In this document: piece after piece, positions 25,101-56,935 of the stretch
Position numbering within the stretch: the first letter of the stretch is position 1
Layout of the letters: every line of letters starts with the position of its first letter
Assembly (NCBI GenBank): GCA_014904985.1
Contig: MU128912.1
Span: 554,594 to 618,593 of the forward strand
Length of the DNA stretch: 64,000 nt
Reading direction: 5' to 3'
Origin: Hydnum rufescens UP504
Taxonomy: Eukaryota > Basidiomycota > Agaricomycetes > Cantharellales > Hydnaceae
Translations under genes and position numbers: made by a program
The notes under the pieces: model-generated
Told to the model about the DNA's origin: nothing
The model's database searches: none
The model's input: only the letters and a program-made list of their open reading frames with translations

Positions 25101-28100
25101 ACCGGTCTAGCATGTATTGTGGTGGAACCAACTTTACCTCAGTGTTGCCTGATATGGGAAGGACAACTATATTGTGATTACCTAATGAGGCATACTGTAT
25201 GATACATGAGTTATAAGTAACCGGTCTAGCATGTATTGTGGTGGAACCAACTTTACCTCAGTGTTGCCTGATATGGGAAGGACAACTATATTGTGATTAC
25301 CTAATGAGGCATACTGTATGATACATGAGTTATAAGTAACCGGTCTAGCATGTATTGTGGTGGAACCAACTTTACCTCAGTGTTGCCTGATATGGGAAGG
25401 ACAACTATATTGTGATTACCTAATGAGGCATACTGTATGATACATGAGTTATAAGTAACCGGTCTAGCATGTATTGTGGTGGAACCAACTTTACCTCAGT
25501 GTTGCCTGATATGGGAAGGACAACTATATTGTGATTACCTAATGAGGCATACTGTATGATACATGAGTTATAAGTAACCGGTCTAGCATGTATTGTGGTG
25601 GAACCAACTTTACCTCAGTGTTGCCTGATATGGGAAGGACAACTATATTGTGATTACCTAATGAGGCATACTGTATGATACATGAGTTATAAGTAACCGG
25701 TCTAGCATGTATTGTGGTGGAACCAACTTTACCTCAGTGTTGCCTGATATGGGAAGGACAACTATATTGTGATTACCTAATGAGGCATACTGTATGATAC
25801 ATGAGTTATAAGTAACCGGTCTAGCATGTATTGTGGTGGAACCAACTTTACCTCAGTGTTGCCTGATATGGGAAGGACAACTATATTGTGATTACCTAAT
25901 GAGGCATACTGTATGATACATGAGTTATAAGTAACCGGTCTAGCATGTATTGTGGTGGAACCAACTTTACCTCAGTGTTGCCTGATATGGGAAGGACAAC
26001 TATATTGTGATTACCTAATGAGGCATACTGTATGATACATGAGTTATAAGTAACCGGTCTAGCATGTATTGTGGTGGAACCAACTTTACCTCAGTGTTGC
26101 CTGATATGGGAAGGACAACTATATTGTGATTACCTAATGAGGCATACTGTATGATACATGAGTTATAAGTAACCGGTCTAGCATGTATTGTGGTGGAACC
26201 AACTTTACCTCAGTGTTGCCTGATATGGGAAGGACAACTATATTGTGATTACCTAATGAGGCATACTGTATGATACATGAGTTATAAGTAACCGGTCTAG
26301 CATGTATTGTGGTGGAACCAACTTTACCTCAGTGTTGCCTGATATGGGAAGGACAACTATATTGTGATTACCTAATGAGGCATACTGTATGATACATGAG
26401 TTATAAGTAACCGGTCTAGCATGTATTGTGGTGGAACCAACTTTACCTCAGTGTTGCCTGATATGGGAAGGACAACTATATTGTGATTACCTAATGAGGC
26501 ATACTGTATGATACATGAGTTATAAGTAACCGGTCTAGCATGTATTGTGGTGGAACCAACTTTACCTCAGTGTTGCCTGATATGGGAAGGACAACTATAT
26601 TGTGATTACCTAATGAGGCATACTGTATGATACATGAGTTATAAGTAACCGGTCTAGCATGTATTGTGGTGGAACCAACTTTACCTCAGTGTTGCCTGAT
26701 ATGGGAAGGACAACTATATTGTGATTACCTAATGAGGCATACTGTATGATACATGAGTTATAAGTAACCGGTCTAGCATGTATTGTGGTGGAACCAACTT
26801 TACCTCAGTGTTGCCTGATATGGGAAGGACAACTATATTGTGATTACCTAATGAGGCATACTGTATGATACATGAGTTATAAGTAACCGGTCTAGCATGT
26901 ATTGTGGTGGAACCAACTTTACCTCAGTGTTGCCTGATATGGGAAGGACAACTATATTGTGATTACCTAATGAGGCATACTGTATGATACATGAGTTATA
27001 AGTAACCGGTCTAGCATGTATTGTGGTGGAACCAACTTTACCTCAGTGTTGCCTGATATGGGAAGGACAACTATATTGTGATTACCTAATGAGGCATACT
27101 GTATGATACATGAGTTATAAGTAACCGGTCTAGCATGTATTGTGGTGGAACCAACTTTACCTCAGTGTTGCCTGATATGGGAAGGACAACTATATTGTGA
27201 TTACCTAATGAGGCATACTGTATGATACATGAGTTATAAGTAACCGGTCTAGCATGTATTGTGGTGGAACCAACTTTACCTCAGTGTTGCCTGATATGGG
27301 AAGGACAACTATATTGTGATTACCTAATGAGGCATACTGTATGATACATGAGTTATAAGTAACCGGTCTAGCATGTATTGTGGTGGAACCAACTTTACCT
27401 CAGTGTTGCCTGATATGGGAAGGACAACTATATTGTGATTACCTAATGAGGCATACTGTATGATACATGAGTTATAAGTAACCGGTCTAGCATGTATTGT
27501 GGTGGAACCAACTTTACCTCAGTGTTGCCTGATATGGGAAGGACAACTATATTGTGATTACCTAATGAGGCATACTGTATGATACATGAGTTATAAGTAA
27601 CCGGTCTAGCATGTATTGTGGTGGAACCAACTTTACCTCAGTGTTGCCTGATATGGGAAGGACAACTATATTGTGATTACCTAATGAGGCATACTGTATG
27701 ATACATGAGTTATAAGTAACCGGTCTAGCATGTATTGTGGTGGAACCAACTTTACCTCAGTGTTGCCTGATATGGGAAGGACAACTATATTGTGATTACC
27801 TAATGAGGCATACTGTATGATACATGAGTTATAAGTAACCGGTCTAGCATGTATTGTGGTGGAACCAACTTTACCTCAGTGTTGCCTGATATGGGAAGGA
27901 CAACTATATTGTGATTACCTAATGAGGCATACTGTATGATACATGAGTTATAAGTAACCGGTCTAGCATGTATTGTGGTGGAACCAACTTTACCTCAGTG
28001 TTGCCTGATATGGGAAGGACAACTATATTGTGATTACCTAATGAGGCATACTGTATGATACATGAGTTATAAGTAACCGGTCTAGCATGTATTGTGGTGG

Positions 28101-31100
28101 AACCAACTTTACCTCAGTGTTGCCTGATATGGGAAGGACAACTATATTGTGATTACCTAATGAGGCATACTGTATGATACATGAGTTATAAGTAACCGGT
28201 CTAGCATGTATTGTGGTGGAACCAACTTTACCTCAGTGTTGCCTGATATGGGAAGGACAACTATATTGTGATTACCTAATGAGGCATACTGTATGATACA
28301 TGAGTTATAAGTAACCGGTCTAGCATGTATTGTGGTGGAACCAACTTTACCTCAGTGTTGCCTGATATGGGAAGGACAACTATATTGTGATTACCTAATG
28401 AGGCATACTGTATGATACATGAGTTATAAGTAACCGGTCTAGCATGTATTGTGGTGGAACCAACTTTACCTCAGTGTTGCCTGATATGGGAAGGACAACT
28501 ATATTGTGATTACCTAATGAGGCATACTGTATGATACATGAGTTATAAGTAACCGGTCTAGCATGTATTGTGGTGGAACCAACTTTACCTCAGTGTTGCC
28601 TGATATGGGAAGGACAACTATATTGTGATTACCTAATGAGGCATACTGTATGATACATGAGTTATAAGTAACCGGTCTAGCATGTATTGTGGTGGAACCA
28701 ACTTTACCTCAGTGTTGCCTGATATGGGAAGGACAACTATATTGTGATTACCTAATGAGGCATACTGTATGATACATGAGTTATAAGTAACCGGTCTAGC
28801 ATGTATTGTGGTGGAACCAACTTTACCTCAGTGTTGCCTGATATGGGAAGGACAACTATATTGTGATTACCTAATGAGGCATACTGTATGATACATGAGT
28901 TATAAGTAACCGGTCTAGCATGTATTGTGGTGGAACCAACTTTACCTCAGTGTTGCCTGATATGGGAAGGACAACTATATTGTGATTACCTAATGAGGCA
29001 TACTGTATGATACATGAGTTATAAGTAACCGGTCTAGCATGTATTGTGGTGGAACCAACTTTACCTCAGTGTTGCCTGATATGGGAAGGACAACTATATT
29101 GTGATTACCTAATGAGGCATACTGTATGATACATGAGTTATAAGTAACCGGTCTAGCATGTATTGTGGTGGAACCAACTTTACCTCAGTGTTGCCTGATA
29201 TGGGAAGGACAACTATATTGTGATTACCTAATGAGGCATACTGTATGATACATGAGTTATAAGTAACCGGTCTAGCATGTATTGTGGTGGAACCAACTTT
29301 ACCTCAGTGTTGCCTGATATGGGAAGGACAACTATATTGTGATTACCTAATGAGGCATACTGTATGATACATGAGTTATAAGTAACCGGTCTAGCATGTA
29401 TTGTGGTGGAACCAACTTTACCTCAGTGTTGCCTGATATGGGAAGGACAACTATATTGTGATTACCTAATGAGGCATACTGTATGATACATGAGTTATAA
29501 GTAACCGGTCTAGCATGTATTGTGGTGGAACCAACTTTACCTCAGTGTTGCCTGATATGGGAAGGACAACTATATTGTGATTACCTAATGAGGCATACTG
29601 TATGATACATGAGTTATAAGTAACCGGTCTAGCATGTATTGTGGTGGAACCAACTTTACCTCAGTGTTGCCTGATATGGGAAGGACAACTATATTGTGAT
29701 TACCTAATGAGGCATACTGTATGATACATGAGTTATAAGTAACCGGTCTAGCATGTATTGTGGTGGAACCAACTTTACCTCAGTGTTGCCTGATATGGGA
29801 AGGACAACTATATTGTGATTACCTAATGAGGCATACTGTATGATACATGAGTTATAAGTAACCGGTCTAGCATGTATTGTGGTGGAACCAACTTTACCTC
29901 AGTGTTGCCTGATATGGGAAGGACAACTATATTGTGATTACCTAATGAGGCATACTGTATGATACATGAGTTATAAGTAACCGGTCTAGCATGTATTGTG
30001 GTGGAACCAACTTTACCTCAGTGTTGCCTGATATGGGAAGGACAACTATATTGTGATTACCTAATGAGGCATACTGTATGATACATGAGTTATAAGTAAC
30101 CGGTCTAGCATGTATTGTGGTGGAACCAACTTTACCTCAGTGTTGCCTGATATGGGAAGGACAACTATATTGTGATTACCTAATGAGGCATACTGTATGA
30201 TACATGAGTTATAAGTAACCGGTCTAGCATGTATTGTGGTGGAACCAACTTTACCTCAGTGTTGCCTGATATGGGAAGGACAACTATATTGTGATTACCT
30301 AATGAGGCATACTGTATGATACATGAGTTATAAGTAACCGGTCTAGCATGTATTGTGGTGGAACCAACTTTACCTCAGTGTTGCCTGATATGGGAAGGAC
30401 AACTATATTGTGATTACCTAATGAGGCATACTGTATGATACATGAGTTATAAGTAACCGGTCTAGCATGTATTGTGGTGGAACCAACTTTACCTCAGTGT
30501 TGCCTGATATGGGAAGGACAACTATATTGTGATTACCTAATGAGGCATACTGTATGATACATGAGTTATAAGTAACCGGTCTAGCATGTATTGTGGTGGA
30601 ACCAACTTTACCTCAGTGTTGCCTGATATGGGAAGGACAACTATATTGTGATTACCTAATGAGGCATACTGTATGATACATGAGTTATAAGTAACCGGTC
30701 TAGCATGTATTGTGGTGGAACCAACTTTACCTCAGTGTTGCCTGATATGGGAAGGACAACTATATTGTGATTACCTAATGAGGCATACTGTATGATACAT
30801 GAGTTATAAGTAACCGGTCTAGCATGTATTGTGGTGGAACCAACTTTACCTCAGTGTTGCCTGATATGGGAAGGACAACTATATTGTGATTACCTAATGA
30901 GGCATACTGTATGATACATGAGTTATAAGTAACCGGTCTAGCATGTATTGTGGTGGAACCAACTTTACCTCAGTGTTGCCTGATATGGGAAGGACAACTA
31001 TATTGTGATTACCTAATGAGGCATACTGTATGATACATGAGTTATAAGTAACCGGTCTAGCATGTATTGTGGTGGAACCAACTTTACCTCAGTGTTGCCT

Positions 31101-34100
31101 GATATGGGAAGGACAACTATATTGTGATTACCTAATGAGGCATACTGTATGATACATGAGTTATAAGTAACCGGTCTAGCATGTATTGTGGTGGAACCAA
31201 CTTTACCTCAGTGTTGCCTGATATGGGAAGGACAACTATATTGTGATTACCTAATGAGGCATACTGTATGATACATGAGTTATAAGTAACCGGTCTAGCA
31301 TGTATTGTGGTGGAACCAACTTTACCTCAGTGTTGCCTGATATGGGAAGGACAACTATATTGTGATTACCTAATGAGGCATACTGTATGATACATGAGTT
31401 ATAAGTAACCGGTCTAGCATGTATTGTGGTGGAACCAACTTTACCTCAGTGTTGCCTGATATGGGAAGGACAACTATATTGTGATTACCTAATGAGGCAT
31501 ACTGTATGATACATGAGTTATAAGTAACCGGTCTAGCATGTATTGTGGTGGAACCAACTTTACCTCAGTGTTGCCTGATATGGGAAGGACAACTATATTG
31601 TGATTACCTAATGAGGCATACTGTATGATACATGAGTTATAAGTAACCGGTCTAGCATGTATTGTGGTGGAACCAACTTTACCTCAGTGTTGCCTGATAT
31701 GGGAAGGACAACTATATTGTGATTACCTAATGAGGCATACTGTATGATACATGAGTTATAAGTAACCGGTCTAGCATGTATTGTGGTGGAACCAACTTTA
31801 CCTCAGTGTTGCCTGATATGGGAAGGACAACTATATTGTGATTACCTAATGAGGCATACTGTATGATACATGAGTTATAAGTAACCGGTCTAGCATGTAT
31901 TGTGGTGGAACCAACTTTACCTCAGTGTTGCCTGATATGGGAAGGACAACTATATTGTGATTACCTAATGAGGCATACTGTATGATACATGAGTTATAAG
32001 TAACCGGTCTAGCATGTATTGTGGTGGAACCAACTTTACCTCAGTGTTGCCTGATATGGGAAGGACAACTATATTGTGATTACCTAATGAGGCATACTGT
32101 ATGATACATGAGTTATAAGTAACCGGTCTAGCATGTATTGTGGTGGAACCAACTTTACCTCAGTGTTGCCTGATATGGGAAGGACAACTATATTGTGATT
32201 ACCTAATGAGGCATACTGTATGATACATGAGTTATAAGTAACCGGTCTAGCATGTATTGTGGTGGAACCAACTTTACCTCAGTGTTGCCTGATATGGGAA
32301 GGACAACTATATTGTGATTACCTAATGAGGCATACTGTATGATACATGAGTTATAAGTAACCGGTCTAGCATGTATTGTGGTGGAACCAACTTTACCTCA
32401 GTGTTGCCTGATATGGGAAGGACAACTATATTGTGATTACCTAATGAGGCATACTGTATGATACATGAGTTATAAGTAACCGGTCTAGCATGTATTGTGG
32501 TGGAACCAACTTTACCTCAGTGTTGCCTGATATGGGAAGGACAACTATATTGTGATTACCTAATGAGGCATACTGTATGATACATGAGTTATAAGTAACC
32601 GGTCTAGCATGTATTGTGGTGGAACCAACTTTACCTCAGTGTTGCCTGATATGGGAAGGACAACTATATTGTGATTACCTAATGAGGCATACTGTATGAT
32701 ACATGAGTTATAAGTAACCGGTCTAGCATGTATTGTGGTGGAACCAACTTTACCTCAGTGTTGCCTGATATGGGAAGGACAACTATATTGTGATTACCTA
32801 ATGAGGCATACTGTATGATACATGAGTTATAAGTAACCGGTCTAGCATGTATTGTGGTGGAACCAACTTTACCTCAGTGTTGCCTGATATGGGAAGGACA
32901 ACTATATTGTGATTACCTAATGAGGCATACTGTATGATACATGAGTTATAAGTAACCGGTCTAGCATGTATTGTGGTGGAACCAACTTTACCTCAGTGTT
33001 GCCTGATATGGGAAGGACAACTATATTGTGATTACCTAATGAGGCATACTGTATGATACATGAGTTATAAGTAACCGGTCTAGCATGTATTGTGGTGGAA
33101 CCAACTTTACCTCAGTGTTGCCTGATATGGGAAGGACAACTATATTGTGATTACCTAATGAGGCATACTGTATGATACATGAGTTATAAGTAACCGGTCT
33201 AGCATGTATTGTGGTGGAACCAACTTTACCTCAGTGTTGCCTGATATGGGAAGGACAACTATATTGTGATTACCTAATGAGGCATACTGTATGATACATG
33301 AGTTATAAGTAACCGGTCTAGCATGTATTGTGGTGGAACCAACTTTACCTCAGTGTTGCCTGATATGGGAAGGACAACTATATTGTGATTACCTAATGAG
33401 GCATACTGTATGATACATGAGTTATAAGTAACCGGTCTAGCATGTATTGTGGTGGAACCAACTTTACCTCAGTGTTGCCTGATATGGGAAGGACAACTAT
33501 ATTGTGATTACCTAATGAGGCATACTGTATGATACATGAGTTATAAGTAACCGGTCTAGCATGTATTGTGGTGGAACCAACTTTACCTCAGTGTTGCCTG
33601 ATATGGGAAGGACAACTATATTGTGATTACCTAATGAGGCATACTGTATGATACATGAGTTATAAGTAACCGGTCTAGCATGTATTGTGGTGGAACCAAC
33701 TTTACCTCAGTGTTGCCTGATATGGGAAGGACAACTATATTGTGATTACCTAATGAGGCATACTGTATGATACATGAGTTATAAGTAACCGGTCTAGCAT
33801 GTATTGTGGTGGAACCAACTTTACCTCAGTGTTGCCTGATATGGGAAGGACAACTATATTGTGATTACCTAATGAGGCATACTGTATGATACATGAGTTA
33901 TAAGTAACCGGTCTAGCATGTATTGTGGTGGAACCAACTTTACCTCAGTGTTGCCTGATATGGGAAGGACAACTATATTGTGATTACCTAATGAGGCATA
34001 CTGTATGATACATGAGTTATAAGTAACCGGTCTAGCATGTATTGTGGTGGAACCAACTTTACCTCAGTGTTGCCTGATATGGGAAGGACAACTATATTGT

Positions 34101-34282
34101 GATTACCTAATGAGGCATACTGTATGATACATGAGTTATAAGTAACCGGTCTAGCATGTATTGTGGTGGAACCAACTTTACCTCAGTGTTGCCTGATATG
34201 GGAAGGACAACTGAGGAAGAAGCCAAAGCTCTGTTCTGGCATGTACCAGATTGGTTTGTGGCGCCGTGTCACATCTCAAACC
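19176..34282 (-). repeat. Expanded 3' LTR of the copia element
   Basis: About 15,107 bp against 232 bp for the 5' LTR. Both share the same outer 113 bp; the 5' LTR contains one 119-bp unit and this one contains 126. Outside the array the two LTRs differ nearly only at positions that fit loss of a CpG in one or the other copy. Confidence 0.85.
19191..34184. repeat. 119-bp satellite array, 126 units
   Basis: From AGTGTCACCT (19191) to the last AGTGTTGCCT (34185) is 14,994 bp, exactly 126 x 119. The line phase of the repeat recurs without shift at 19321, 26461 and 33601, so there is no net indel, and I see no base variant between units after the first few bases of unit 1. Each unit has one CpG (in AACCGGTC), a small inverted repeat CATACTGTATG, and no open frame over 60 codons. 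It takes up 23 percent of the window. Confidence 0.95.
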
Positions 34283-34715: not shown

Positions 34716-35832
34716 TCAATATTGCCGGCCAGTCTGTGTCACTGAAGCCATGGGTGATTGCTGATAAATCATTGTTGAGCTTCCATCATATATAATGGAT
34801 AGGTCTTGTGTCCCTTTGAGGTAGTGTAGGACACATTTGGCAGCAAGCCAATGTGTATGGCCATAGTTGGAGTTGAATTGGCAGAGTGATCCAACTGCAT
34901 AAGCAATGTCAGGGTGGGTGGCCATGGCTGCATAAAGTAGGGAGCCTGTGATATTTTGGTAAGGAATGGATTTCATTTCCATGTGTTCAGTGTCATCTTG
35001 TGGGCATTGGGTAACTGATAGGGGGTGTTGGGGTCCAGGGGGTATGTACAGTATTTGCATCTGCCATCCCAGATTGCTCACAAATGTCTTGGATATAGTG
35101 ACGCTGGGACAGGGTGATCCTCCTGTTTGGGTGGTCATGTATTATTCTATACCAATGATGAGGTGTGCTGGTCCAAGTTCTGTGATATTAAATCTCTGCT
35201 TTAGTTGGTCCTTGATATTGGTTAGGAATGCCTTTGAGTTTGTTGTGGTAAGGAGGTCATCCACATAAAGGGCAATAATCATAAGTATTCCCTCTTGGTG
35301 GTATATGTATAGGCACTTGTCACCGGAGCAGCATGTGAAACCGAGTTCTATAAGTACACTGTGGATGAGGTTGTTCCAGACTTTGCCAGATTGTTTGAGG
35401 CCATAAATGGTGTGTAGGAGGAGCCATATTTCATTGGGCTTGGCACTGACCCCCTCTGGGGGTTTCATGTAGATTTCCTCCTTTAGGTGGCCATTCAAGT
35501 AGGCAGTTTTGATGTCTAGCTGTTCAAGCTCTAAGTTGTGTATTGCTGCAATTGCACAGACAAGTCTGATTGAGGCAATCATTGTAACAGGTGTGTATGT
35601 ATCGAAATAGTTGATTCCTGGGATTTGGCTGAAACCCTGTGCAACTAATCAGGCTTTGTAGCATGCAATGTTTCCTTCAGCATCTCACTTCAATTTGAAA
35701 ATGAGTTTGCTGCCAATGAGCTTGTGGCCAGCTGGCACATCCTTTCGTTTGATAGTTTTGAATGTGTTATTTTCACATATTGATTGTATTTCGTCCTCAA
35801 TTCCCTTCTGCCATTCATTGGCACTATTGCTC
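34716..35832 (-). pseudogene. Copia reverse transcriptase remnant
   Basis: Two frames (35582-35142 and 35138-34716) carry LDIKTAYLNGHLKEEIYMK, YGLKQSGKVWNN, the catalytic ALYVDDLL and PGPQHPLS, then AMATHPDIAYAVGSL of the connection domain. Stops near 35140 and 35650 break it. The upstream end is cut by the nested foldback element at 35841. Confidence 0.85.
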
Positions 35833-35840
35833 CTCATGGC

Positions 35841-36485
35841 TATGGTTGCTGAAGTCAGGTTACAAACCCTGGAAACCTGAGTTCAAACCTGAACCTGACC
35901 TGTGGTCAGGTTCAGGTTTGCCCTCATGAGTGATTTCAGGTTTTGGTCAAGTTTGGGTTTTGGGCCCCCATGTTTTCAGGTTCAGGTCAGGTTCAGGTTT
36001 AACCCAGGTTCAAACCTGAAATCATGAGCCCCTTCAGATATGAGAAATATCTGAGCTGAACACTGATTTTAACCATAATCCAGAATGAGTCATCAATTCT
36101 GGCAAGTTCCAGAGCTATGTAAGCAGGTTCCTTGGTGTGTATAGACTATGTATAGTCAATATAAACTCTGCATGAGGTTTTATGTTTAACTTCAGTTCAA
36201 AGTAACTTATTTCTCCACCAAGGAACCTGCTTACATAACTCTGGAACTTGCCAGAATTGATGACTCATTCTGGATTATGGTTAAAATCAGTGTTCAGCTC
36301 AGATATTTCTCATGTCTGAAGGGGCTCATGATTTCAGGTTTGAACCTGGGTTAAACCTGAACCTGACCTGAACCTAACCTAAGATAGGTTTTCTTAAGGT
36401 TAGGTTCAGGTTTTGCCAATTGAGGATATTCAGGTTTTGCCCAAATGGGGCAAAACCTGACCTGAACCTGACTTTGACAGCCATA
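35841..36485. mobile_element. Nested hAT-like foldback element (MITE)
   Basis: 645 bp, flanked by the 8-bp duplication CTCATGGC (35833-35840 and 36486-36493). Ends are inverted: TATGGTTGCTGAAGTCAGG on the left pairs with TATGGCTGTCAAAGTCAGG read from the right. Inside, arms of about 150 bp (around 35985-36140 and 36215-36370) are nearly perfect inverted repeats around a 75-bp loop, and AGGTTCAGGTTT-like motifs recur. There is no coding sequence. The 8-bp duplication fits the hAT superfamily. Removing the element and one copy of the duplication leaves the copia reading frame continuous. Confidence 0.8.
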
Positions 36486-36493
36486 CTCATGGC

Positions 36494-37018
36494 TTCTTTG
36501 TAGCTGCATGGCTCATCAAAGTTCTGGGACTGGGTTACTGCTCTGAGTGCGAATACATTGTGTTCGTGCGTGGGGATCCTGGCCACAGTGGCTGTGTTTG
36601 GGTCCTTGTCCATGTGTCTGGCAGCTTGTTGGAAGTCATCCTCACTGGAGGCATTGTTGAGGTCATTTTGGCACCAGGCAGGTGGTCAGTGTATTCGGAC
36701 TGGTTGTGCGGGGGCTGGGGCCGGTGTGGGGACCAGTATGGGCTCATGTGTATATGTGGGATCAGGCTCGATAGTGGGATTTATCTTGCTGGTGTCTGGG
36801 GTGTTAATTGGCCAAGTATCTTGTAGTATTGGTGGTTCTCCTGGCATGTCTTGTAGGTATACACCATTGTTGAATGATACATCATGGGATATGATGATTT
36901 GGTGATCTCTGATCCACCACAAGCAGTATGCTTTGGTTCCAACTGCATAACCAAGTAGGATGCACTTGTTGCTTTTGTCATCTAATTTCTTCCAAAGTTC
37001 CCTCAGGACAAGGGCATA
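36494..37018 (-). pseudogene. Copia integrase C-terminal region and linker remnant
   Basis: Minus frame carrying RELWKKLDDKSNKCILLGYA and DHQIIISHDVSFNNGVY, the usual start of the copia region between integrase and reverse transcriptase, then a threonine/proline-rich linker and DEPCSYKEAM at the foldback insertion. Split from the integrase core by the solo LTR at 37019. Confidence 0.75.
37014..37018. repeat. Target-site duplication of the nested solo LTR
   Basis: GCATA here and again at 37632-37636, directly outside the TG...CA ends of the solo LTR. Confidence 0.7.
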
Positions 37019-37631
37019 TGTCAGGGCCACACTGCGACGAGAGCACCAAACAAATATAAACACAGATAACTCTGGCTAAGTCCGGTGTGAGTCCGGCTAA
37101 GTCCAGGAGAATCCGGGCAAGAAGGAGATAACGAGGACAGGAGGGGATGGAGAGGCAATCCAGCGGCCCGGAGGGGACTAGGCGGAAATGGGCACAGTGG
37201 TCCTTAAGCTCACAGAGTCAACTGGAAAGTACTCGGACCTGTAGTCCAGAGTAAAAGCGGAAATCCTGAGATTAACATTAAGGGAATAGATACAGTGAGG
37301 CTAACCTGTAGTCTGGAGTAAAAGTGGAAATCCTGAGAGACCAAAGCTGGGTCTCTGGATGTCGCCCCCAGACTACTTATACATAGTTCCTATACTATGG
37401 GGGATTGATTGCTTAACGAGGAGGTGGTTACAGGGGGGCAGGCACAAGAGGGGGAGCAGGCAGGGGATGGGAAAGTGGAGGGAACAGGAACAGGGCCAGG
37501 GGTAAGTGTGGGAATCGGAAGTAAAGGAGATGAAGGGGAAATGAAATGGAGGTGGGGACAAATCGGAAACAGACCAGAAGTAAGACCGGAACCAAAACCA
37601 GAATTAACCAGGAAATGGATGAACTCTGACA
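37019..37631. mobile_element. Nested solo LTR (613 bp), probably Ty3/gypsy
   Basis: Starts TGTCAGGGCC and ends CTCTGACA, a TG...CA pair with matching inverted tips, flanked by 5-bp GCATA duplications. It splits the copia integrase between AYA and the following YALVLREL. There is no coding sequence. It contains an internal duplication built on CTGTAGTCYRGAGTAAAA (near 37240 and 37305). The TGTCA tips and length suggest a gypsy-class LTR left after recombination; no internal region remains in this window. Confidence 0.65.
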
Positions 37632-38600
37632 GCATATGCAACTGTGCCAAATTCATAAATTCCATGTATATGGGGGTGCTTGTTTGACCAGGCTTCCATT
37701 GGAGTTTTATTTTTTAATGCAGTGTGGGGTGAAATATTTCCAAGATATGTAGCTGTTAGGGCCACCTCTGCCCAGAAACCATTCAACATTCCTGCCACCT
37801 TGAGCATGGGTCTAATTTTTTCAACAATTGTGTGATTGCCTTGTTCCAACAGTCCATTCTGTTCAGGTGTGTATGGAGTAGATGTTTGGGGGGATATTCC
37901 TTCAGCTGTGAGGTAGCATTGGAATTCCAGTGAAGTGTATTCACCTCCATTGTCACTTCGTATGGTTTTGATTTGGTGACCAGTTTCCTTTTCCATCAAT
38001 GCCTTGAACTCCAGGAACTTTGCTAGGACTTTGCTTTTGGCTGACATGAGGTACAGGAATTTTCAGTGGGAGTGGTCATCTGTGAATGTGATGAAATAAT
38101 GTTTGCCTCCAATTGATAGTGGGAGTGGGCCACATACATCTGAGTGGATGAGGTCAAGGATGCCAGTGGCTGTGGTTTTGTTGTTTGGGAATGGGGGTCA
38201 GTGTGCCTTGCCTAAAGCACATGCTTCACAGAACTCTTGTGTTCCAACAAGTTTGTGAATGTCTTCAACCATCCCTTGATTAACTAATTGCGATATGTTA
38301 TCATATCCAAGGTGGCCAAGTTGGCAGTGTAGTAGATTTATGTCAATTGAGCGGGTAGTAGCTACATTGGCTGCAGTAGGGTTGTTGATTGCTCTAGCAA
38401 GCAGATGGTAGAGGTCACTTGGCCCTGCCTGGAGGCCATTCCAATGGTGCGGCTAGATGGCTTTGATTTTATATCACATTGGTCACTGTCAAATATAAGG
38501 ATGTGGTTGCGTTTGGTGAGGTCTGCCACAGATAGGAGGGTGGTGGCCATATGTTTGGTGTATAGTACGTTTTCAATATAGCCATGGGTAGTATTTCTGT
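37632..38600 (-). pseudogene. Copia integrase core remnant
   Basis: Frame 38047-37632 holds IKTIRSDNGGEYTS and STPYTPEQNGLLEQ, the second Asp and the Glu of the DD35E integrase core, then the WAEVALTATYLGN and KTPMEAW motifs. Upstream frames toward 38600 are broken (stop near 38050). The domain is inactive as it stands. Confidence 0.8.
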
Positions 38601-38867
38601 TTACATTGAGCTCCAAGTGGATTGTTCCAGAACCTGTTGCCAAGATGGATGAGGCATCATCAAGGTCAATTTTATGGGTTTGTCTAGGAGATGGAAAGTG
38701 GAGTTGTTGAACCAGTCATGGCAGGGTGATGTGTGGCATGAACATCCAGAGTTGATGAGTATGTCATTGAGTGCTTGGTGGGTCACTAGGTTCACTTTTG
38801 CACTGAAGTTGTTGTTGTGAACAGCCGTAAGGAATGCATGCGGGGACCCTGGTAGAGGCTTGATCAT
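38601..38867 (-). pseudogene. Copia protease-like remnant
   Basis: An 88-codon frame with ILINSGCSCHTSP where an active copia protease would have a D-S/T-G-A-S motif. The catalytic Asp is replaced by Asn, so it looks dead. It lies between gag and integrase as expected. Confidence 0.55.
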
Positions 38868-38966
38868 GCATATGCTGTGGTGGCAGACGTATCTGCTGCT
38901 GCAGCTGTGGTGATGGCCCTTGTGGGTTTGTCAAAAGGGACTCCAAACTTTGCCCCCCTCACTTCG

Positions 38967-39620
38967 TCAGTTTTCTGCCTTATGCAGTCCTTTCTTGCAG
39001 TTGGTACAGAGAGGTGGGGTAGGCTTTGGCTTTGGCTGGGTAGCCAGGGTTTGGCATGTGGCCACAGCAAGTGCAGATTGTCTGTGGATTGGATCATCTT
39101 GTAATAATGATTCAGCACAGAGTAGGCGAGATTTGATGTGTGTGACAGTCAGTGGAACTGTGTCAGAGGTGGCTTTGATGGTGTTTGATATGAATTGTGC
39201 CCAAGTTTCAGTTTTGGGAAGGGAGTGGAGGAGTAAGAGGGCAAGGAATTTGTCATCCAGACCCTTTCTCATCCCTAATAAGTGCTGGTTCTCTGTATGT
39301 ATCCAACCAATGTGGTCAGTGATAGGGGTACTGTCTGTGTATTTATGTTTGATAATCCCTATTTTGATGTAGAAAGCCATGACACCGGAGTGTGTGTCTT
39401 GGTTGACAGATAGTACAGTTTTCCAAATTTCAGCAGATATCCCTTTGTCGCCGAACTGTGTAATCATGTTATCATTGACATGTTCAATGATTATGTTGAA
39501 AGCATCTGCATCACATTTCATCCAGGTAGCAATTTCAGCAAGTCTCTTTGTGGCAGCACAGTCATGGGCATCCTTGGAGATAAGGGTGCTTGGCACATAT
39601 GGGCTCAATGGAGTGGCCAT
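38967..39620 (-). pseudogene. Copia gag remnant
   Basis: A 217-codon frame starting at 39620. It has the gag-like helical region (AEIWKTVLSV, LLHSLPKTETWAQFI) and ends in a degenerate zinc knuckle, CTNCKKGLHKAEN, with the last cysteine missing from this frame. Order gag-protease-integrase-RT-RNase H is correct for copia. Confidence 0.75.
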
Positions 39621-39784
39621 TGTTCTATGCCTGAGAGAATATCTGAGGCACCAAGAGTTTGAATTTTCATGCTAATTCTGACTTTCCATATTGGAAAATT
39701 CCAGCTAGTGAGTTGTGGGATACATGACTTAATGTTGCCAAGTTCTAGAGTTGTCATTGGAATTACTGAGTGTTTACCCTATAA

Positions 39785-44136: not shown

Positions 44137-47100
44137 CTACAATGGTGTATAGTCATCAATGATCCTTGCAAGTGCCTTTGCAGTATCATATGAATCTGGT
44201 CCCTGTGCATCTCCATAACCCACAAAGTCACTCTTGATCTGAGCCTGGATCAAGGTAATTGTATGCTCTGTTTCAGGTGCATTCTTCCCACACCGAATCC
44301 AAAGGATGACCACTGGTTTAATGAGCCAAGATAAGCAGTTTCCTATGCACATAAAATTAGTCTCAAACTGACAACAAATAAACACCAGATATTGAAGATT
44401 AGGGTGGGATGGGATAGGCAGGTGATGCTGGAAGGACTGCTTAGACTTCTTGGAAATGGGGAATCAATGAAAACCTGAGCTGACCAACAGTTTCAGGAAG
44501 GATGCACAGGCCTTGATTCCCTGAATGTTTGAGTGCCTAATAAACCATAGGTGAGATAGAGAGATGGTTGGAAGTGCAGATTGACTGTATTTACCAGATA
44601 GAATGAGATGCAGGTGAGAAATGATGAGATTGCAATTGTACAGAATCATTTGGCTTTGGTGCATTGAATGCAACTTACATGATCCTGTGGTATATGAAAT
44701 TAGAAGGAAAACTGTTGGAAAATAAAATATGAATTATATAGATCAATGGACTCACAAGCTATATTGTAAACATCAGTAAAATGTGTGAGCCATGACAATA
44801 CACCAAATAGTAAGAAATATAGAATTACATCCTATATGGTTAATGTTCCCAGGTAAGGGATAGGCCAAAGATCATGAACCAAAGGGTGGGAGGTGTGGAC
44901 TGACCTCCTATGGGACCAAGCCACCATGTGGGACATCAGAAAATGATGATGCACTGGATTATCAGATGTCTGGACTTACAGGCTGCATTATATCAAAAGA
45001 GGAAATCAGCAAGGGATGATGGATTGAATTTTAATATATCAACTTACTTTCTACATTCAATCCCATAAAAAGATGGATTAGTGAAGACAATGCATCAAAT
45101 TCTGAGAGATACAGACTTACAACCTGTGTCACCAACATCACCACAAGATGCATCAGTTCAGGACAATACATTGAATCATAAGGCATCTAGCATTACCTCC
45201 TATGTTGCCAATGCCACCCAAAGATGAGTCAGCAGGGGACAATCCATTAAATTATAAAACATCCAGACTTACCTGCTATATTTTCAAATGCCACCAAAAG
45301 ATGAATCAGCAGGGGACAATCCATTAAATTATAAAACATCCAGACTTACTTGCTATATTGTCAATACCACCAAAAGATGGATCAACAAGTGACAATGCAT
45401 TGAATTCTAAGACATCCAGACTTACCTGCTATGTGGTTAATGCCACCAAAAGATGGATCAGCAAGAGACAATGCATTGAATTCTAAGACATTCAGACTCA
45501 CACGCTATGTTGTCAATGCCACCAAAAGATGGATTAGCAAGGGACAATGCATTGAATTCCAAGATATGCAGACCCACAGGCTATGTTGTCAATACCACCA
45601 CAAGATCAATCAGCAAGGGGCAATACATTAGATTCTGAGACATCCAGACTTACAAACTATTTGTCAATGCCACCAAAAGATGAATCAGCAATAGACAATG
45701 CATTGAATTTCAAGACATCTAGACATACAAGCTATTGTCAATGCCACCAACAGATCAATCAGCAATGGATAATGCATTGAATTTTAAGACCCATACTTAC
45801 AGCCTATGTTGTCAATGCCACCAAACATGAATCAACAAGGGACAGTGCATTGAATTCTAACACATCCAGACTTACACGCTGTGTTGTCAATGCCACCAAC
45901 AGATCAATCAGCAAGGGGTGATGCAGTGAATTCTGAGACATCTAGACTTACACCCTACATCATCAATACCATCAAAAGAGGAATCAGCAAAGGACAATGC
46001 ATTCAATTCTAAGTCACCCAGACTTACATGCTATGTTGTCAATTGCCACCAAAAGATGAATCAGAAGGGATAATTCCATGAATTCTAAGATATCCAGACT
46101 TACAAGCTATGTTATCAATACCACCAACAGATGAATCAACCATAGACAATGCATTTAATTCTTCTGAGACATCCTGACTTACAAGCTACATGGTCAACAC
46201 CACCAGAAAATAAATCAACCTGAGACAATGCATTGAATTTGAGACATCCAAACTTACAAGCTATGTTGTCAATTCCACCAAAAGATGAATCAGAATGGAC
46301 AATGCATTGAATTGTAAATATCCAGACTTACACCCTATGTTGTCAACCCCATCAAAGGATGAATCAGCAAGGTACAATACATTGAATTCTAGAACATCCA
46401 GACTTACATCCTGTGTTGTCAATGTCACTTAGAGATGAACCAACAAAATACAATGAATTGAATTCTCAGACATCCAGACTTACAAACTACATGTCAATCC
46501 ACAAAGATAGATCAAAAAGGGCATGCATTGGATTATAGACATCCAGACTTACACGCTGTGTTCCAATGCCCCCAAAGATGAATCAGCAAGGGACAATGTA
46601 TTGAATCCTAAGATATCCAAACTTACACCCTATATTGTCAATGCCACCAAAACATAAATCAGCAGGGGATGATGCATTGAATCATAAGTCACCCAGACTT
46701 ACAAGCTATCAATGCCACAAAGGATGAATCAGCAAGGGACAATGCATTGAATTATAAGGCATCCAGACTTACAAGCTGATGTTATCAATGCCACCAAAAT
46801 ATGAATCAACCAGGGACAATGCACTGAATTGTCAGACATCAGACTTACACCCTATGTGATCAATGCACCAAATGGTAAATAAATCAAGAGGATAATACAT
46901 TGAATTCTGAGACAGATAAACTTACAACCTATGGTATCAATGCCATCAAATGATAAATCAGTAAGGGACAATGCATTCAGTTCTGAGACAGTCTAAGACA
47001 TCCAGACTCACATGCTGTGTTGCCAATTCCACCAAAGGATGAATCAGAAAAGGACAATGCATTGAATTTTAAGACATCCAGACTTACAGCCTATGTTGTC

Positions 47101-50100
47101 AATACCACCCAAAATATTAATCAGCCAGAGACAATGCATTGTATTCCAAGATATTCAAACTTACCCCCTATATTGTTAATGCCACCATAACACAAATTAG
47201 CCAGGGACAATGTATTGCATTCCAAGATCTCCAAACTCACCTCCTATGTTGCCAATGCCACCAAAATATGAATCATGAAGGGATATTGAATTTTAAGATG
47301 TCCAGACTTACACGCTATGTTGTCCATGATCAGCAAGGGACAATGCATTGAATTCTGAGACATTCAGACTCACATCCTGTGTCCCCCATGTCAGCATGAG
47401 ATGAATCAGCAAGGGACAATGTATTGAATTCTAAGACATCCAGACTTACACGCTATGTTGTCAATTCCACCAAAGATAAATCAGCAAGAGGCAATGCATT
47501 AATTTCTAAGACATCTAGACTCACATGCTATGTTGTCAATGCCACCAAAATATGAGTCAGGAAGGGATTATGTATCAAATTTCAAGCCATCTGACTCACT
47601 TCCTGCATTGGTCAATGCCACCCAAAGATATATTACCTCATAGCCATTCTTCATGGTGGATGATATGCACTTACATCCTACAGTTTTCAGGTTGACCATC
47701 CAATCTATCAGTGTGGTGCCTTGCATCACATTCCAAGAGATGCTATCTTACCCTCTATGTTATCAACCCACCAAAAGATAAATCAACCTACAGTGCTGTA
47801 TGGAATTCAAAGATCTAGACCCACCCTCTTGGTTGTAGATGTCACCAATAACTGATTCAGGCAAGTACCATGCATCAATCAGCATGATATTGGACTTACA
47901 TACTATAGTGTCATGACCACCCAACTACATATCAACCAAGGATCACCCAATGAATAATGGGGAACACAAGCTCACCACCTTAGATTGTCACACAACAAAC
48001 AATGTATCAGTTGGTAACCTCACAGTAATTTGCAAGAGATCTCAACATACAGTCTGTATTCAAGGCACTAAATCAGCTAACACCTCTGGGTTATACAGTG
48101 GGGGCATGTGACTCACCTCCTATATTGCCAATGCAACCAGATGATGAATCAGCTGGCAATCCTGTATCACATTGCATTGTAAGAGGTCATGGGCCTACCA
48201 GCTATGTTGTTGATACCATTGGGGAGATCAACAAGTCACCACACACTAAGTCAAAAGACCTAGGCTTACCCGCTACATTGTCAGGGCCATCCAGAATGCA
48301 TCAGTCAGTGATTGTGCATCAAGTGGCAGAGATCAGAACTTACATGCTGCATTATTAAGGTCACCAAAAGATATATTGGCCACCAACCCCATATTCAATT
48401 AGAAGAGATCCAGACTTACATACTACATTGCCAATGGGCCAAACAATGCATCAGACAGTGACCATGCATTCCATTGTGAGAGATCCAGCCTTACATCCTA
48501 CATTGGCCATATCAGACACAGAAATATCAGTCTACATCTGTGCATTGCATTGGAAGAGGACCAGACTCACAGCCTACATTTTCAATGTCACCAAAAGATA
48601 GATTCAACAACAACAGCAACAGATTGAATGGTAGAAATTCAGACTCACATTCTATTTTATCAATCCCACAATGGATGTATCAGCCCAGCAACCACCCATC
48701 AATAGTAGGAGACAGTACTCACTTCCTACATCATCAATCCCACCCAGCAAGGGATGAGCCAGCATTCATACATCAAACTGGGAGCTGCCCAGACTTACAT
48801 CCTACATTGTTGATGGCAATGAAAAAAATTTAGCTGGTGACTAATGATAGCAGGGGATATGACTTCACCTGCTATAATTTGAATGCCACCAGCTAATGCA
48901 TCAGCCAATGAGCCTGTATCAAATTGTAAGAGAAGCAGCCCACCAGCTGCATGGTAAATGCCACCAGAAGATGGATCAATCAATAATCATGCACAAAATT
49001 GAAAGGCAGCACACATTCTTTGATTGCTAATGTCATCCAGTGATGTGTCATCCAGTGATGGTGCATCAAGGTGGAGGAGATTCAGACTTACATCCTATAG
49101 TATCAGTGTTATCCAACAACATTAGCCAGTGACCACATATCAAATTGGAGTATGTCCAAACTTACAGGCTGTGGTGTCAATCCCAAATGAAGCATCAATC
49201 AGGGACCATGCATCAGACTGTGAGAGACCTGGACTTACTCCCTACAGTATCCATGACAAAGAAAGAGACATCAATCTGCCCAGTGACCATGTGCCAACAG
49301 GGAATTCCAACTTACATACTACATTTTCCATGCCACCAAATAATGTATTGGCCAACAACCACCCATGAAAGCTGGGTGATATGGACTGACCTCCTATTTT
49401 ATCCATCCAACATAATGAGGTATCAAACATGGATCTCATAGTGAACCCACTTACATACTGTGGTGTGAATGTCAACATAATTTGGTAGTCAGTAAGCATC
49501 CACCAAATTCCAACACATCTGGACATACAAGCTATGGTGTTGATGCCACCAAGAGGTGTATAAGCCAGTCATAACACATTGAGTGGTGGGGAAAGCCAAC
49601 CAACATTCTAAGTTCATGCCACCAAAATGTTAGTGACCACATATCAAACCATGACAGGTGACTCTTACCTCCTATGTTGTTGATGTCACCAAGGGATATG
49701 TCAACAGGTCAGCAGGTGGGAGTGTGGGTTTAAAGGTGAGAGATTCATTCTCACATTCTATGGTATCCATCCCACCAAGAGATATAGGCCCAGTGAGTTT
49801 GCATCAACTAAGAGACATAAACTCACCCCCTGTGTTGTGGATTCCACCAGAAGTCATATCAGGGAACCACCATGCATGGAAGGGTGGGAGATCTGGACTC
49901 ACATACTGTGCCCCCAGTGGCACCCAAAAAAATGTATCAGCCAGCTACCATGTATTGAAATTGTCAGAGATCTACACTGACCAACTACATTGGCAGTGCC
50001 ACAAAGACACATGTAAGCTAGTGTTTGTGCACCAAATGTGAACACCTGCAGCCATACCTCCTATGTTGTCACCACCATCCAAAACCAGTGTTTCAGCCCC

Positions 50101-51634
50101 ACCATATAATACATCAGTACCTTAAATGTTGTGCAAGTGACATATTCACTCACCATAAGAATCCTGAAGCCCTCATCTGCACATAACTCCAACTCTTCAT
50201 CTTGTGTAGGTTGTTGGGTTCCTACTATAATATTCCCTGAACATAGTCAAATTGTACCATCATCTTATCAATACAGCTTGAGCCTGGACCTTTAACTCCA
50301 ACATGAATGACACTATATGATAACATGATTGTTAATCACTATCAATCCCTTGGACACCATACTCACCGCATTAAAACATATATGGTATGAATCCGACGGT
50401 TCCTTTTCCAGACCGTGAGCCTGAGCAATGATCTCTGCATCTCATGGGGAAGTGCATCCATAGTGACTTGAAGAAGTTGGTTGCACAATGCTATGCTCTG
50501 GTTGCTAACTTCATCCATGTCTTTAAGCGATAAATTTAAGGGTCAAAATTATTTTGTGGATAGAGTATGCATACTTCCAACCCTGATAAAACCAGCAGGT
50601 GGGTACTTCTGCTTTTGAAATCGCATCTCGAGTCTGTTAATGAATTCAGCCACTTTCCACTCCACCTCTTGGCCACAATTGAGGAAATCGGGCGGGCTGG
50701 GAGAGGGGCCTAGAACCTCAACCTCGACTTTCGTCCTTCTTCCATCTAACTTGGTGAAAATTCCAATAACAGGCACTGGATGGATAACATGGACCGTGCG
50801 CAACAGATCATGTCAAATGCTGTGACTAACGGGACATACCTGATGCTGTAGATTCAGAGAAAAAGCCTAACTGTAGGAATTCAAAAGGCCTGTCATTATC
50901 TGTTGGAATGCAAAGCCTGTCACAATTGATGAGTCCAAGTATGACGACGTGTGAACTGCATGGATGACGCACCAAATCGCATGCAATTGCTGCGAAGGCG
51001 AAGCTAACGAGCGCTTTCGAATAAATTTCCAGACGGCCTCGACCTCTTCGACCCCTCCTGCCTCAAAACCACCAGAGTCGTGAAAAACAAATGCCGGGTC
51101 TGATGCGTAGGTGATTTCGTCGTCGATAATGTGGATCCCTCGCTAGATGGTGTGAAAGCATGGGGCAACCGCAGTGCACCTTTGATAGGATGGCACTTAC
51201 TTGATCGTGTCCTTTGGGGTCCTGCTTGACCTGGGATAAAGGGAGGAATTAGACCAGCAGCTCTACGGAGTTCGAACATCCATAGCAATTACAAGTTTTC
51301 CATTCCGGGTCACTATGGCGGCACCGGCAGGGCTGTCTGTTAATCGCTCGAGCAGAGTGGTCTTTCCTGCATTCGCCGGTCCAAGTATGAGGACCCTGAA
51401 GCGTTTGACGCTGGATTCCTCGTCAGAGAGTTCTTCGTCAGAATGTCCTTCGTCAGAGTGTCCTTCGCTGGACCATTCTTCATCAGACCGCTCTTCATCA
51501 GAGTGTTGTTCATCGGGCTGTTGTTCATCAGGCTGTTGTTCATCGGGGGATTCTTCATCGGGGTGTTCTTTCTTGGTGGGTTTGTTGATAAGTTTGTTGG
51601 GGAGTTGAAAATGCTTGCGTATGGATTTCCACAT
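44137..51634 (-). CDS. P-loop GTPase-like gene running into an array of 3-nt micro-exons
   Basis: ATG at 51634. Exon 1 encodes an acidic DE/Q-rich stretch (about residues 24-75), then the P-loop VLILGPANAGKTTLLERL. Short introns lead to VKQDPKGHDQ, RGIHIIDDEITYASDP, FVFHDSGGFEAGG (G3-like, near 51090), LHAIWLCIPTDNDRPFEF, VPVIGIFTKLDG (G4-like TKLD, near 50750) and AGFIRVG. An exon at about 50519-50367 and one at 50312-50154 (ends CADEGFRILM) follow. From 50154 to 44679 come 73 tiny islands framed by AG and GT (see the array entry), and the last recognisable frame starts after TTTGTTGTCAG near 44370 (FETNFMCIGNCLSW) and stops at 44137 (DDYTPL). Exon 50312-50154 needs one missing base or a tiny intron near 50225. 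The GTPase part is well supported by family motifs; that all parts form one transcript is inference. The fused C-terminus is unrecognised. Confidence 0.55.
44679..50154 (-). repeat. Array of 73 intron-like units separated by 3-nt exon-like islands
   Basis: On the minus strand each unit reads GTAAGT (or GTGAGT, GTATGT, GTAAGC) ... CTGAT/TTGAT ... TTGAC-like ... TAG/CAG, then 3 nt, then the next GT. I located 73 islands: 72 of 3 nt, and the last one (44679-44684) of 6 nt. Examples: 50058-50060, 49827-49829, 49316-49318, 48270-48272, 47450-47452, 46553-46555, 45121-45123, 44829-44831. Spacing is 62-86 bp, most often 76. AG and GT flanked every island I checked, including old units at 47600-50100 that have lost most other similarity. 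Young units (45200-47600) have nearly alike introns of about 73 nt. Islands are G or C first and usually T third. Confidence 0.85.
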
Positions 51635-55789: not shown

Positions 55790-56935
55790 GTATATGAGGA
55801 TTTCATAGCAAGTAATAAGATGTAGGGTATCCTTTGGGAGAGTAGATGATAAGGTGATGTGAATTGCATAGCAGGTGATACATAGTTCATAGATGATATG
55901 CATCCTATGGCAGATGATATATATGTCATAGTAGGTGATATATGTTTCATAGTGATGTGCATTTCATAGTAGGTGATATGTATATCATAGTCAGTGATAT
56001 GAATTCTATAGCAGATGATATGGATGTCATAGTAGGTGATATGGATTCTATAGTAGGTGATATGGATTCTATAGCAGGTGATATCAATGTCATAGTAGGT
56101 GATATGGATTCTATAGCAGGTGATATCAATGTCATAGTAGGTGATATGGATTCTATAGCAGGTGATATGGATGTCATAAGAGGTGATATGGATTCTGTAG
56201 CAGGTGATATGAATTCTATTGCAGGTGATCTGGATATCCTAGTAGGTGATATGCCTGATATAGCAGGTGATATGTATGTCATAGTAGGTGATACACATGC
56301 TATAGCAGGTGATGTGTATATTCTAGTAGGTGACACACATGCTACAGCAGGTGATGTGTATACTCTAGTAGGTGATACACATGCTATAGCAGGTGATGTG
56401 TATATTCTAGTAGGTGCTATGCATGCTATAGCAGGTGATGTGTATATCCTAGGTGCTATGCATGCTATAGCAGGTGATGTGTATATCCTAGTAGGTGCTA
56501 TGCATTCCATAGCAGGTGATATTGACATCATAGTAGGTGATATGCATTCTATAGCAGGTGATATGCATTCTATAGCAGGTGATATGCATGTCATAGTAGG
56601 TGATGAGTATTTCATACTAGGTAATCTGCATTCTATAGCAAGTGACATGCATTCCATAGCAGGTGATATGTATTCTATAGCAGATGATATGTGGTTCATA
56701 GCAAGTGATATGCTTATAGGGGGTGATATGTATTTTATAGTAGGTGATATAGGATAAATAGTAGGTGATATGGGATGTGTTGTAGGTGATATGTACTTCA
56801 TAGCAAGTGATATATGTTTCATAGTAGGTGATGTGCATGCAATATCAGGTGATATGTGCCCATAGTGGGTGATCTGTTGATCCATAGTACATGCTTATGC
56901 TTCCCATAGTAGGTGATATGCACATCATAGCAGGC
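55790..56935. repeat. 21-bp minisatellite, open on both strands
   Basis: About 54 imperfect units built on GGTGATATGNATTCTATAGCA. Because 21 is a multiple of 3, the plus strand stays open for 271 codons (55942-56757; IAGDMDSIVGDMDS heptads) and the minus strand for 312 codons (56885-55947; ISPAIES/ISPTMTS heptads). Neither resembles a known protein, and openness follows from the repeat itself. Confidence 0.85.

Follow-up and report, generated by a model that had tools for sequence, protein, structure and literature searches.

The window analysed here is a 64,000-nt stretch of the genome of the fungus Hydnum rufescens UP504 (contig MU128912.1, positions 554,594 to 618,593 of the forward strand; genome sequencing is covered in PMC7550596). 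Between positions 51634 and 44137 its minus strand holds a gene model of 84 exons that encodes 522 codons plus a stop, open from ATG to stop and with all exons in frame. It starts with eight ordinary exons (51634-50154) and continues with 72 exons that are each exactly 3 nt long (50060-44756), then one of 6 nt (44684-44679) and three further ordinary exons. We refer to the 73 very short exons as islands and to their series as the array. The parts of the gene are as follows.

51293 to 51634, minus strand: exon 1, with the ATG, acidic 5-residue repeats and the P-loop GPANAGKT (model; identity to NCBI protein P0016, residues 1-273)
51201 to 51230, minus strand: exon 2 (model, P0016)
50973 to 51142, minus strand: exon 3, RGIH...HDSGGF, switch II-like by eye (model, P0016)
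50840 to 50916, minus strand: exon 4 (model, P0016)
50575 to 50775, minus strand: exon 5, FTKLDG with the TKxD motif (model, P0016)
50367 to 50520, minus strand: exon 6 (paralogue alignment and model)
50290 to 50312, minus strand: exon 7, followed by intron 50289-50237 (paralogue alignment and model)
50154 to 50236, minus strand: exon 8, ending GFRILM in phase 0 (alignment and model; annotated paralogues extend to this point)
50058 to 50060, minus strand: first island, GAG
47675 to 50060, minus strand: islands 1-33, the N-block (ELYGNENLYEYGPDNL...RRD), each 3 nt (island chain; related unbroken peptide in JGI proteins P0037, P0041, P0042 and P0043)
44756 to 47602, minus strand: islands 34-72, the hypervariable part and PEDL end, each 3 nt (island chain, diversity analysis)
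44756 to 46410, minus strand: islands 50-72, joined in JGI protein P0031
44679 to 44684, minus strand: 6-nt exon GATCAT, encoding DH (island chain and P0031)
44485 to 44520, minus strand: 36-nt exon GIKACASFLKLL (model and P0031)
44373 to 44427, minus strand: 55-nt exon in which the hydrophobic segment begins (model and P0031)
44137 to 44312, minus strand: last exon, with the LVILWI segment, tail and stop (model and P0031)

Public annotation follows this gene only in part. We retrieved NCBI proteins with the L016 paralogue model as query, scoring the 8000 candidates with the most words in common. The NCBI model of the window's gene, P0016, equals ours over the first 273 residues and then runs into the intron after exon 5. 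Models of eight paralogues (P0004, P0005, P0007, P0008, P0009, P0010, P0011 and P0014) reach the ...ILM of exon 8 and then, by eye, depart from the array frame; P0004, P0005, P0007, P0010 and P0014 run on into the first intron of the array, where they read VSE or VSD, and the other three depart otherwise. These models have the same exon 8 frame as ours, and the boundaries of exons 7 and 8 are common to the paralogues. An initial annotation, made from the letters alone, had started the array at 50154 and suspected an indel upstream. Position 50154 is instead the final base of ordinary exon 50236-50154 and belongs to no island. The frame problem disappears without an indel because intron 50289-50237 can be placed as in the paralogues: 50312-50290, joined over it, leads in frame into island 1. 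Similarly, the single downstream exon expected at about 44370 gives way to three (44520-44485, 44427-44373 and 44312-44137).

The array itself was found as the initial annotation had described it. We searched for islands by dynamic programming over position weight matrices of acceptor and donor, trained on the window's own AG-NNN-GT sites, with exon length free between 0 and 9 nt and with AG and GT (or GC) obligatory. On the minus strand from 50060 to 44679 the chain returned an unbroken series of 73 islands between AG and GT, 72 of exactly 3 nt and a last one of 6 nt. All are in phase 0. Joined, they read ELYGNENLYEYGPDNL...PEDLDH, a variable segment of 74 residues that is stop-free, as had been claimed. 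The 72 array introns are 59-83 nt long, and their lengths modulo 3 populate all classes (17, 35 and 20); the intron preceding island 1 measures 93 nt and the one following the 6-nt exon 158 nt. The unit of the array is 76 bp, and the tandem repeat is detected by Tandem Repeats Finder (TRF). With at most one mismatch, the unit sequence GNNATTNACAACATAGNNNGTAAGT occurs 1131 times genome-wide and not once in a reversed control, which excludes that the array arose by chance. At gathering thresholds, the window has no match in Rfam.

The splicing signals within the array are strong. Donors are mostly GTAAGT (38 of 73) or GTGAGT (13 of 73), in agreement with the first description. Across six loci, agreement with GTAAGT is 5.43 of 6 positions for array donors and 4.48 for upstream ordinary donors (438 and 42 donors), and the median intron length is 73 nt in the array versus 56 nt upstream. 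A TTGAC consensus lies 12 to 8 bases upstream of the exon in the acceptor profile; we take it for the branch site, which is also how the initial annotation had read its TTGAC-like motif. Five apparent 7-nt islands proved to be 3-nt islands with a GC donor (GAT or GCT followed by GCAAGT). If retained, 51 of the 72 array introns in the window add an in-frame stop. Since two splice sites 3 nt apart can hardly be occupied at the same time, adjacent introns probably leave in succession.

Searches whose queries were alignments of array parts and of predicted C-terminal halves identified 12 JGI proteins from contigs of 931-1641 nt, and 11 of them hold an unbroken run of 4-72 island-type residues: 72 in P0034, 42 in P0030, 33 in P0037, 29 each in P0040 and P0041, 23 in P0031, 11 in P0042, nine in P0043, eight in P0038, and four each in P0039 and P0044. 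The twelfth, P0035, has no island, and its last intron is read unspliced. P0031 bears directly on the window. In it, 113 of 119 residues equal residues 410-522 of our model, which take in islands 50-72, the 6-nt exon and all three exons behind it. The window protein had been predicted and fixed before the search that found P0031, and by this sequence identity P0031 is the product of the window's own gene. All 51 residues of P0044 are identical to paralogous locus L032 when four of its islands are joined and its intron 4 is retained. P0034 and P0037 have no close counterpart among the stretches we fetched, and we infer by likeness that their residues come from 3-nt exons. Together with the open 84-exon model, P0031 and ten more JGI proteins support the proposal that one gene uses the islands as successive 3-nt exons.

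How these proteins leave or enter the array can be read from their ends. Five exit by reading through an intron: P0038 at intron 8, P0039 at intron 4, P0042 at intron 11, P0043 at intron 9, and P0044 at intron 4. The read-through tails match introns of fetched loci at the right island, four of the five at 95-100% and P0042 at 81%. The start of P0030 is the end of intron 15, with an exact match in three loci. P0031 begins VALTTQ, compared to VTLTTQ in the reference intron before island 50, a difference for which one base suffices. P0040 and P0041 end in DSRYHID, consistent with a jump that leaves a GAT island and lands at an AAG within the next donor (GTATGTAAG followed by TCCAGATATCATATTGATTGA in several loci), as in a mis-splice or skip. 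At the end of P0037, VSPDPY follows VY, and no matching intron was found at that island. Intron 4 of L016, L022, L030 and L032 offers an open read-through tail of 22 residues that is alike in the four loci and is kept in P0039 and P0044; perhaps it gives a short isoform.

Because P0030 and P0031 keep one upstream intron but lack all later ones, introns of the array are not removed strictly 5' to 3'. By eye, JGI proteins P0021 and P0035 translate straight through ordinary introns; the JGI caller therefore does not splice in silico, and contigs with many introns gone and one kept look as RNA intermediates would. The initial annotation had named, as evidence that would speak against it, transcripts that keep the units or splice directly from 50154 to about 44370. 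For the array as a whole none was seen. On a smaller scale, single array introns are kept in several contigs, and one contig pair shows what appears to be a skip of two islands. Taken together, introns with GT/GC-AG ends (set by the construction of the chain, with GC donors identified separately) and a joined product in P0031 and others are the features of a spliceosomal exon series, given the RNA nature that we ascribe to the contigs.

The window's gene belongs to a family. A DNA search that scored 23 of 58 candidates placed the array at about 24 positions in the genome, and a search with the C-terminal exons gave at least 62 matches, at least 53 of them to the last exon. We analysed the window and 24 fetched stretches, 25 in all, with two overlapping pairs (on C74 and C252). 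The island chain runs without a gap above 95 nt in 19 of the 25, and intact complete arrays contain 60-91 three-nt islands. Eight stretches (the window, L010, L013, L016, L017, L021, L022 and L030) have only 3-nt islands besides the 6-nt one; the start is missing from L013 and the end from L017. The remaining 17 have 1-27 odd islands each, some of which, judged by eye, are artefacts of the chain: islands of zero length in L011, L020 and L025, one of 9 nt in L025, and the island that opens L015, which was checked. Six of the 25 are open from ATG to stop (the window, L016, L021, L022, L030 and L015); in L015, 2-nt islands 73, 74 and 77 cancel within five units and preserve the frame. In L010 the array is intact and the upstream part broken, and arrays are broken in L009, L012, L024, L029, L031 and others. 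In alignment-based models L013 and L023 are blank upstream (runs of N), and L025, L027, L029 and L031 are unmapped there. The family is thus partly decayed. The median ratio of nonsynonymous to synonymous substitution rates is 0.375 for exons 1-8 (45 pairs from 10 stretches chosen as intact there) and 0.677 for the last exons (136 pairs, 17 stretches).

Decayed copies such as L009, L012 and L024 contain 58 islands of 2 nt and 14 of 4 nt. Several 2-nt islands are consecutive in L024 and may have spread by unit duplication. In L028 and L029 (C74), part of the N-block is repeated within the array, as expected of unequal exchange. A search for arrays beyond the family, allowing introns of 42-62 nt, gave 16 matches, of which 13 lie in family contigs, two overlap on C70 and one on C229 is a simple repeat by eye; the reversed control gave 29 on one strand, so that these matches carry little weight. 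The C70 sequence, which lies outside the family (G000:C70:48369-48566), has two possible very small exons, TTC and TAT.

When the joined islands of the 25 stretches are read in frame 1, one of 1449 codons is a stop, versus 293 in frame 2 (some islands are counted twice in the overlapping C74 stretches). The initial annotation had warned that a second frame is also open. The reason is simple: a T at island position 3 gives N-T-N, which is never a stop. We then compared diversity column by column among the units of one locus after island 33. Sixteen loci were considered and the 14 with at least eight units kept (L011 and L023 were dropped). Mean diversity is 0.64 at codon position 1, 0.71 at position 2 and 0.10 at position 3. 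Flanking intron columns range from 0 to 0.33 with a mean of about 0.12, the AG and GT columns being 0 by construction. In 13 of the 14 loci, positions 1 and 2 are among the three most diverse of the 63 columns; the window is the exception (13th and 2nd). In 13 loci, introns differ by 0.115 within a locus versus 0.173 between loci, and codon positions 1 and 2 by 0.656 within versus 0.683 between. Repeat units are therefore homogenised per locus while codon positions 1 and 2 stay diverse, the pattern of an hnwd-like repeat diversification. Because the introns are homogenised, the codons diverse and the variable bases those that change the amino acid, the islands read as frame-0 codons under diversifying selection or, less likely, targeted mutation. 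The pattern is directly visible, and it points to diversifying selection as its cause.

The N-block differs from the hypervariable part. None of its 581 islands is a stop, against 39.2 expected under independence of positions in these related copies (L013, L015, L023, L027, L029 and L031 omitted). Intact loci have a common N-block peptide of the form EL.G.E..YEY..DN..LE..YR.DE, and the PEDL/ESMDL end of the array is common to paralogues.

Given these results, we consider it very probable that the islands are real one-codon exons, and that the array is a codon cassette system spliced by intron definition and shaped by repeat exchange and diversifying selection. Each residue of the variable segment would have its own 3-nt exon, and the intron of about 73 nt that comes after it would combine a GTAAGT-like donor with a TTGAC-like branch site and a TAG or CAG acceptor. 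The spliceosome would take out the array introns singly by intron definition and in no strict order, as the contigs partly show. Any array exon could be skipped without loss of frame, to judge from a structure in which all are 3 nt and in phase 0. The 76-bp unit would act as a cassette that carries one codon at the DNA level, and exchange or conversion between near-identical introns would lengthen, shorten and shuffle the array. Selection would maintain the difference between units at codon positions 1 and 2.

Several observations weigh against this interpretation. The JGI contigs are known as translated proteins alone, and their cDNA nature is our deduction. No JGI contig that we found spans the whole window array; 23 of its 72 three-nt islands are covered. 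Codon position 1 of the window ranks just 13th of 63 columns in diversity. Between paralogues, N-block codon positions 1, 2 and 3 differ by 0.243, 0.169 and 0.145, compared to 0.189 for introns. Among the strong acceptors of the 25 stretches, 1379 have a strong donor within 60 nt, which for 84 of them lies at a distance other than 3, and a further 149 have no such donor; decay of many copies explains why the off-distance islands exceed the roughly 1.7% expected from intron indels. In 15 cleaner loci, picked for that cleanness and with five GC-donor islands set aside, 9 of 1035 islands are odd versus 17 expected, a modest shortfall. Variation is low at AG (0.005) and GT (0.000) versus 0.189 at other intron sites, which is largely built in, and we do not take it as proof because the chain requires AG and GT. 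At the level of the protein, the G domain stays below the cut-off of every Pfam family, the best being Arf (20.9 of 22.3 bits) and MMR_HSR1 (17.7 of 21.9), and the recognition role considered below is without direct evidence.

Some arguments for coding were considered and set aside. The constancy of 3 nt is weak proof by itself, with many 2-nt islands in decayed copies and only the modest shortfall in cleaner loci. The absence of stops from the hypervariable part is uninformative, as NNT is never a stop. Conservation of the N-block codons carries no signal relative to the introns.

The best surviving alternative concerns the cause of the variation. Instead of selection, a targeted mutagenesis in the style of diversity-generating systems could vary codon positions 1 and 2. 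Introns are near-identical in some loci while their codons are saturated (upstream flank diversity 0.00 in L020 and 0.02 in L014), and 94% of the 567 hypervariable codons are NNT, which resembles a designed library; C stands at position 3 in 3 of the 567. However, the limits of the variable bases coincide with the positions that change the amino acid, and A is rare at position 1 (15 of 567). We regard targeted mutagenesis as improbable.

A slightly poorer prospect is mass gain of a mobile intron, in which identical introns were inserted between the codons of an older continuous exon. This would place homogenised introns beside diverse codons, as observed, but an ordinary exon would not be 94% NNT. 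The number of units also varies among paralogues (60-91), with a block repeated inside the L028 array, and a single genome search without a positive control found no continuous copy of the N-block.

Recursive splicing fares a little worse again. The islands would be ratchet points that carry a short-intron spliceosome across 5.5 kb, and the codons baggage that is tolerated. Recursive splice sites leave no exon, and the AG directly followed by GT that characterises them is replaced in the window by islands of 3 nt. Short regular introns, strong donors, the retention of single introns and N-block codons no more conserved than introns would all suit such a ratchet. Yet the excess of diversity at positions 1 and 2 over position 3, the common N-block peptide, the PEDL/ESMDL end and the lack of N-block stops make it seem that the product matters.

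Finally, a minisatellite within one long intron, with the islands as by-products of the repeat and exon 8 spliced to either the 6-nt exon or the 36-nt one, agrees with the 76-bp repeat found by TRF, with NCBI models that depart from the array frame at exon 8 and with a skip from exon 8 over the array that would stay in phase, but it is very improbable in view of the unbroken island residues in P0031, P0030, P0034, P0037 and P0041 and of codon positions 1 and 2 that vary while position 3 does not, and for part of the array P0031 contradicts it if its contig is cDNA.

The protein encoded by this gene appears to be a P-loop GTPase-like protein, as judged from its sequence and a structural model. 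In an alignment of 20 family members, the invariant residues include those of GPANAGKT, HDSGGF and FTKLD, among them G, G, K and T of GPANAGKT and T, K and D of TKLD. The motifs GxxxxGK(S/T) and (N/T)KxD are thus present, and the structure predicted for P0001 (pLDDT 72, pTM 0.72; predicted local distance and template modelling scores, respectively) has an alternating strand-helix order that fits a G domain. Profile matches in the PDB are GTPases such as Der and Arl3, with a best E of 1.7e-7, and cover only the P-loop part. Searched against Pfam at E up to 1, the L016 product gave nine weak P-loop NTPase-type families, none of them NACHT or WD. The most hydrophobic 19-residue stretch, residues 455-473 (PNLQYLVFICLVILWIRCG), looks like a putative membrane helix, so that the variable segment would have the G domain on one side and a likely membrane anchor on the other. 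By eye, the N-terminus MWKSIRKHF is not signal-peptide-like. Exon 1 contains a second variable region at 51420-51570, where 15-bp repeats encode acidic 5-residue units whose number varies widely among paralogues.

The window contains other repeats and elements as well. A 119-bp tandem array at 19188-34212 has about 126 copies at 99% identity over 15 kb, and a minisatellite of 21, 42 and 63 bp at 55852-56934 has long open frames on both strands. On the minus strand, 35142-39671 holds fragments resembling a Copia-type retroelement, with reverse transcriptase, integrase and gag-like open reading frames named by eye.

Comparison with known systems places the array apart from each. Schistosome micro-exon genes share with it many short symmetric exons, fast evolution and poor automatic annotation (PMC10526429). 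They have 10-20 exons, mostly of 15 bp (range 3-81 bp in the abstract of that paper and 6-81 bp in its text), with introns of 0.1-5 kb, and encode secreted proteins (PMC10526429), which agrees with the initial statement that their exons are fewer and larger. The Hydnum gene, in contrast, combines 72 exons of 3 nt with introns of about 73 nt, a GTPase-like product and a tandem repeat that proceeds unit by unit. The bicycle genes of aphids are likewise rich in micro-exons and fast-evolving, with about 17 exons on average and almost all internal exons in phase 2 (PMC9168663), whereas the Hydnum exons are in phase 0 and hold one codon each. Single micro-exons of 1-15 nt are spliced in plants (PMC8831610). 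A functional micro-exon exists in Trichoderma Xlr2, and a 2024 statement holds that functional microexons had not previously been described in filamentous fungi (PMC11121469). Those known cases involve one or two micro-exons per gene, and the array an unbroken series of tens. Recursively spliced introns are removed stepwise. So are stwintrons, which are nested or adjoining short introns (PMC6616335). In Hydnum each step leaves a codon. We found no report of single-codon exon arrays in the open-licence PMC literature, the scope of the search, which takes in neither subscription papers nor preprints. The one-codon-per-exon architecture and the use of introns as cassettes for diversification have no known counterpart.

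For the role of the variable segment, the closest precedent is the hnwd family of Podospora (HET-D/E/R), in which an NTPase is joined to repeat arrays that control recognition, evolve in concert and undergo many spontaneous rearrangements (PMC2873952). The hnwd repeats are WD40 repeats of the protein, and the L016 product shows neither the NACHT domain nor the WD repeats of hnwd/STAND NLR proteins; the Hydnum repeat is an intron plus one codon and is invisible as a protein repeat. Because this fungal precedent provides fast-changing, repeat-borne segments on NTPases, recognition is the most likely role. By that analogy the segment could serve a family of diversified receptor-like proteins as their recognition surface, in non-self recognition for instance, a tentative proposal to which we give slightly less than an even chance. 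We put at even odds a broader proposal, that the codon cassettes, with introns used for splicing and recombination alike, form a natural NNT-type library in which single residues are added, lost, swapped and, through exon skipping, chosen, with about 50 loci as a receptor repertoire.

With 83 introns for a protein of 522 residues and 72 exons of a single codon, this gene is, as far as known, a new extreme of splicing. Genes of this kind are lost by annotation pipelines: here the public model ends after exon 5, and eight paralogue models leave the array frame at exon 8. The array suggests that, with each intron defined individually, recognition need not be limited by the size of an exon, and that in this family proteins may be diversified residue by residue through their introns.

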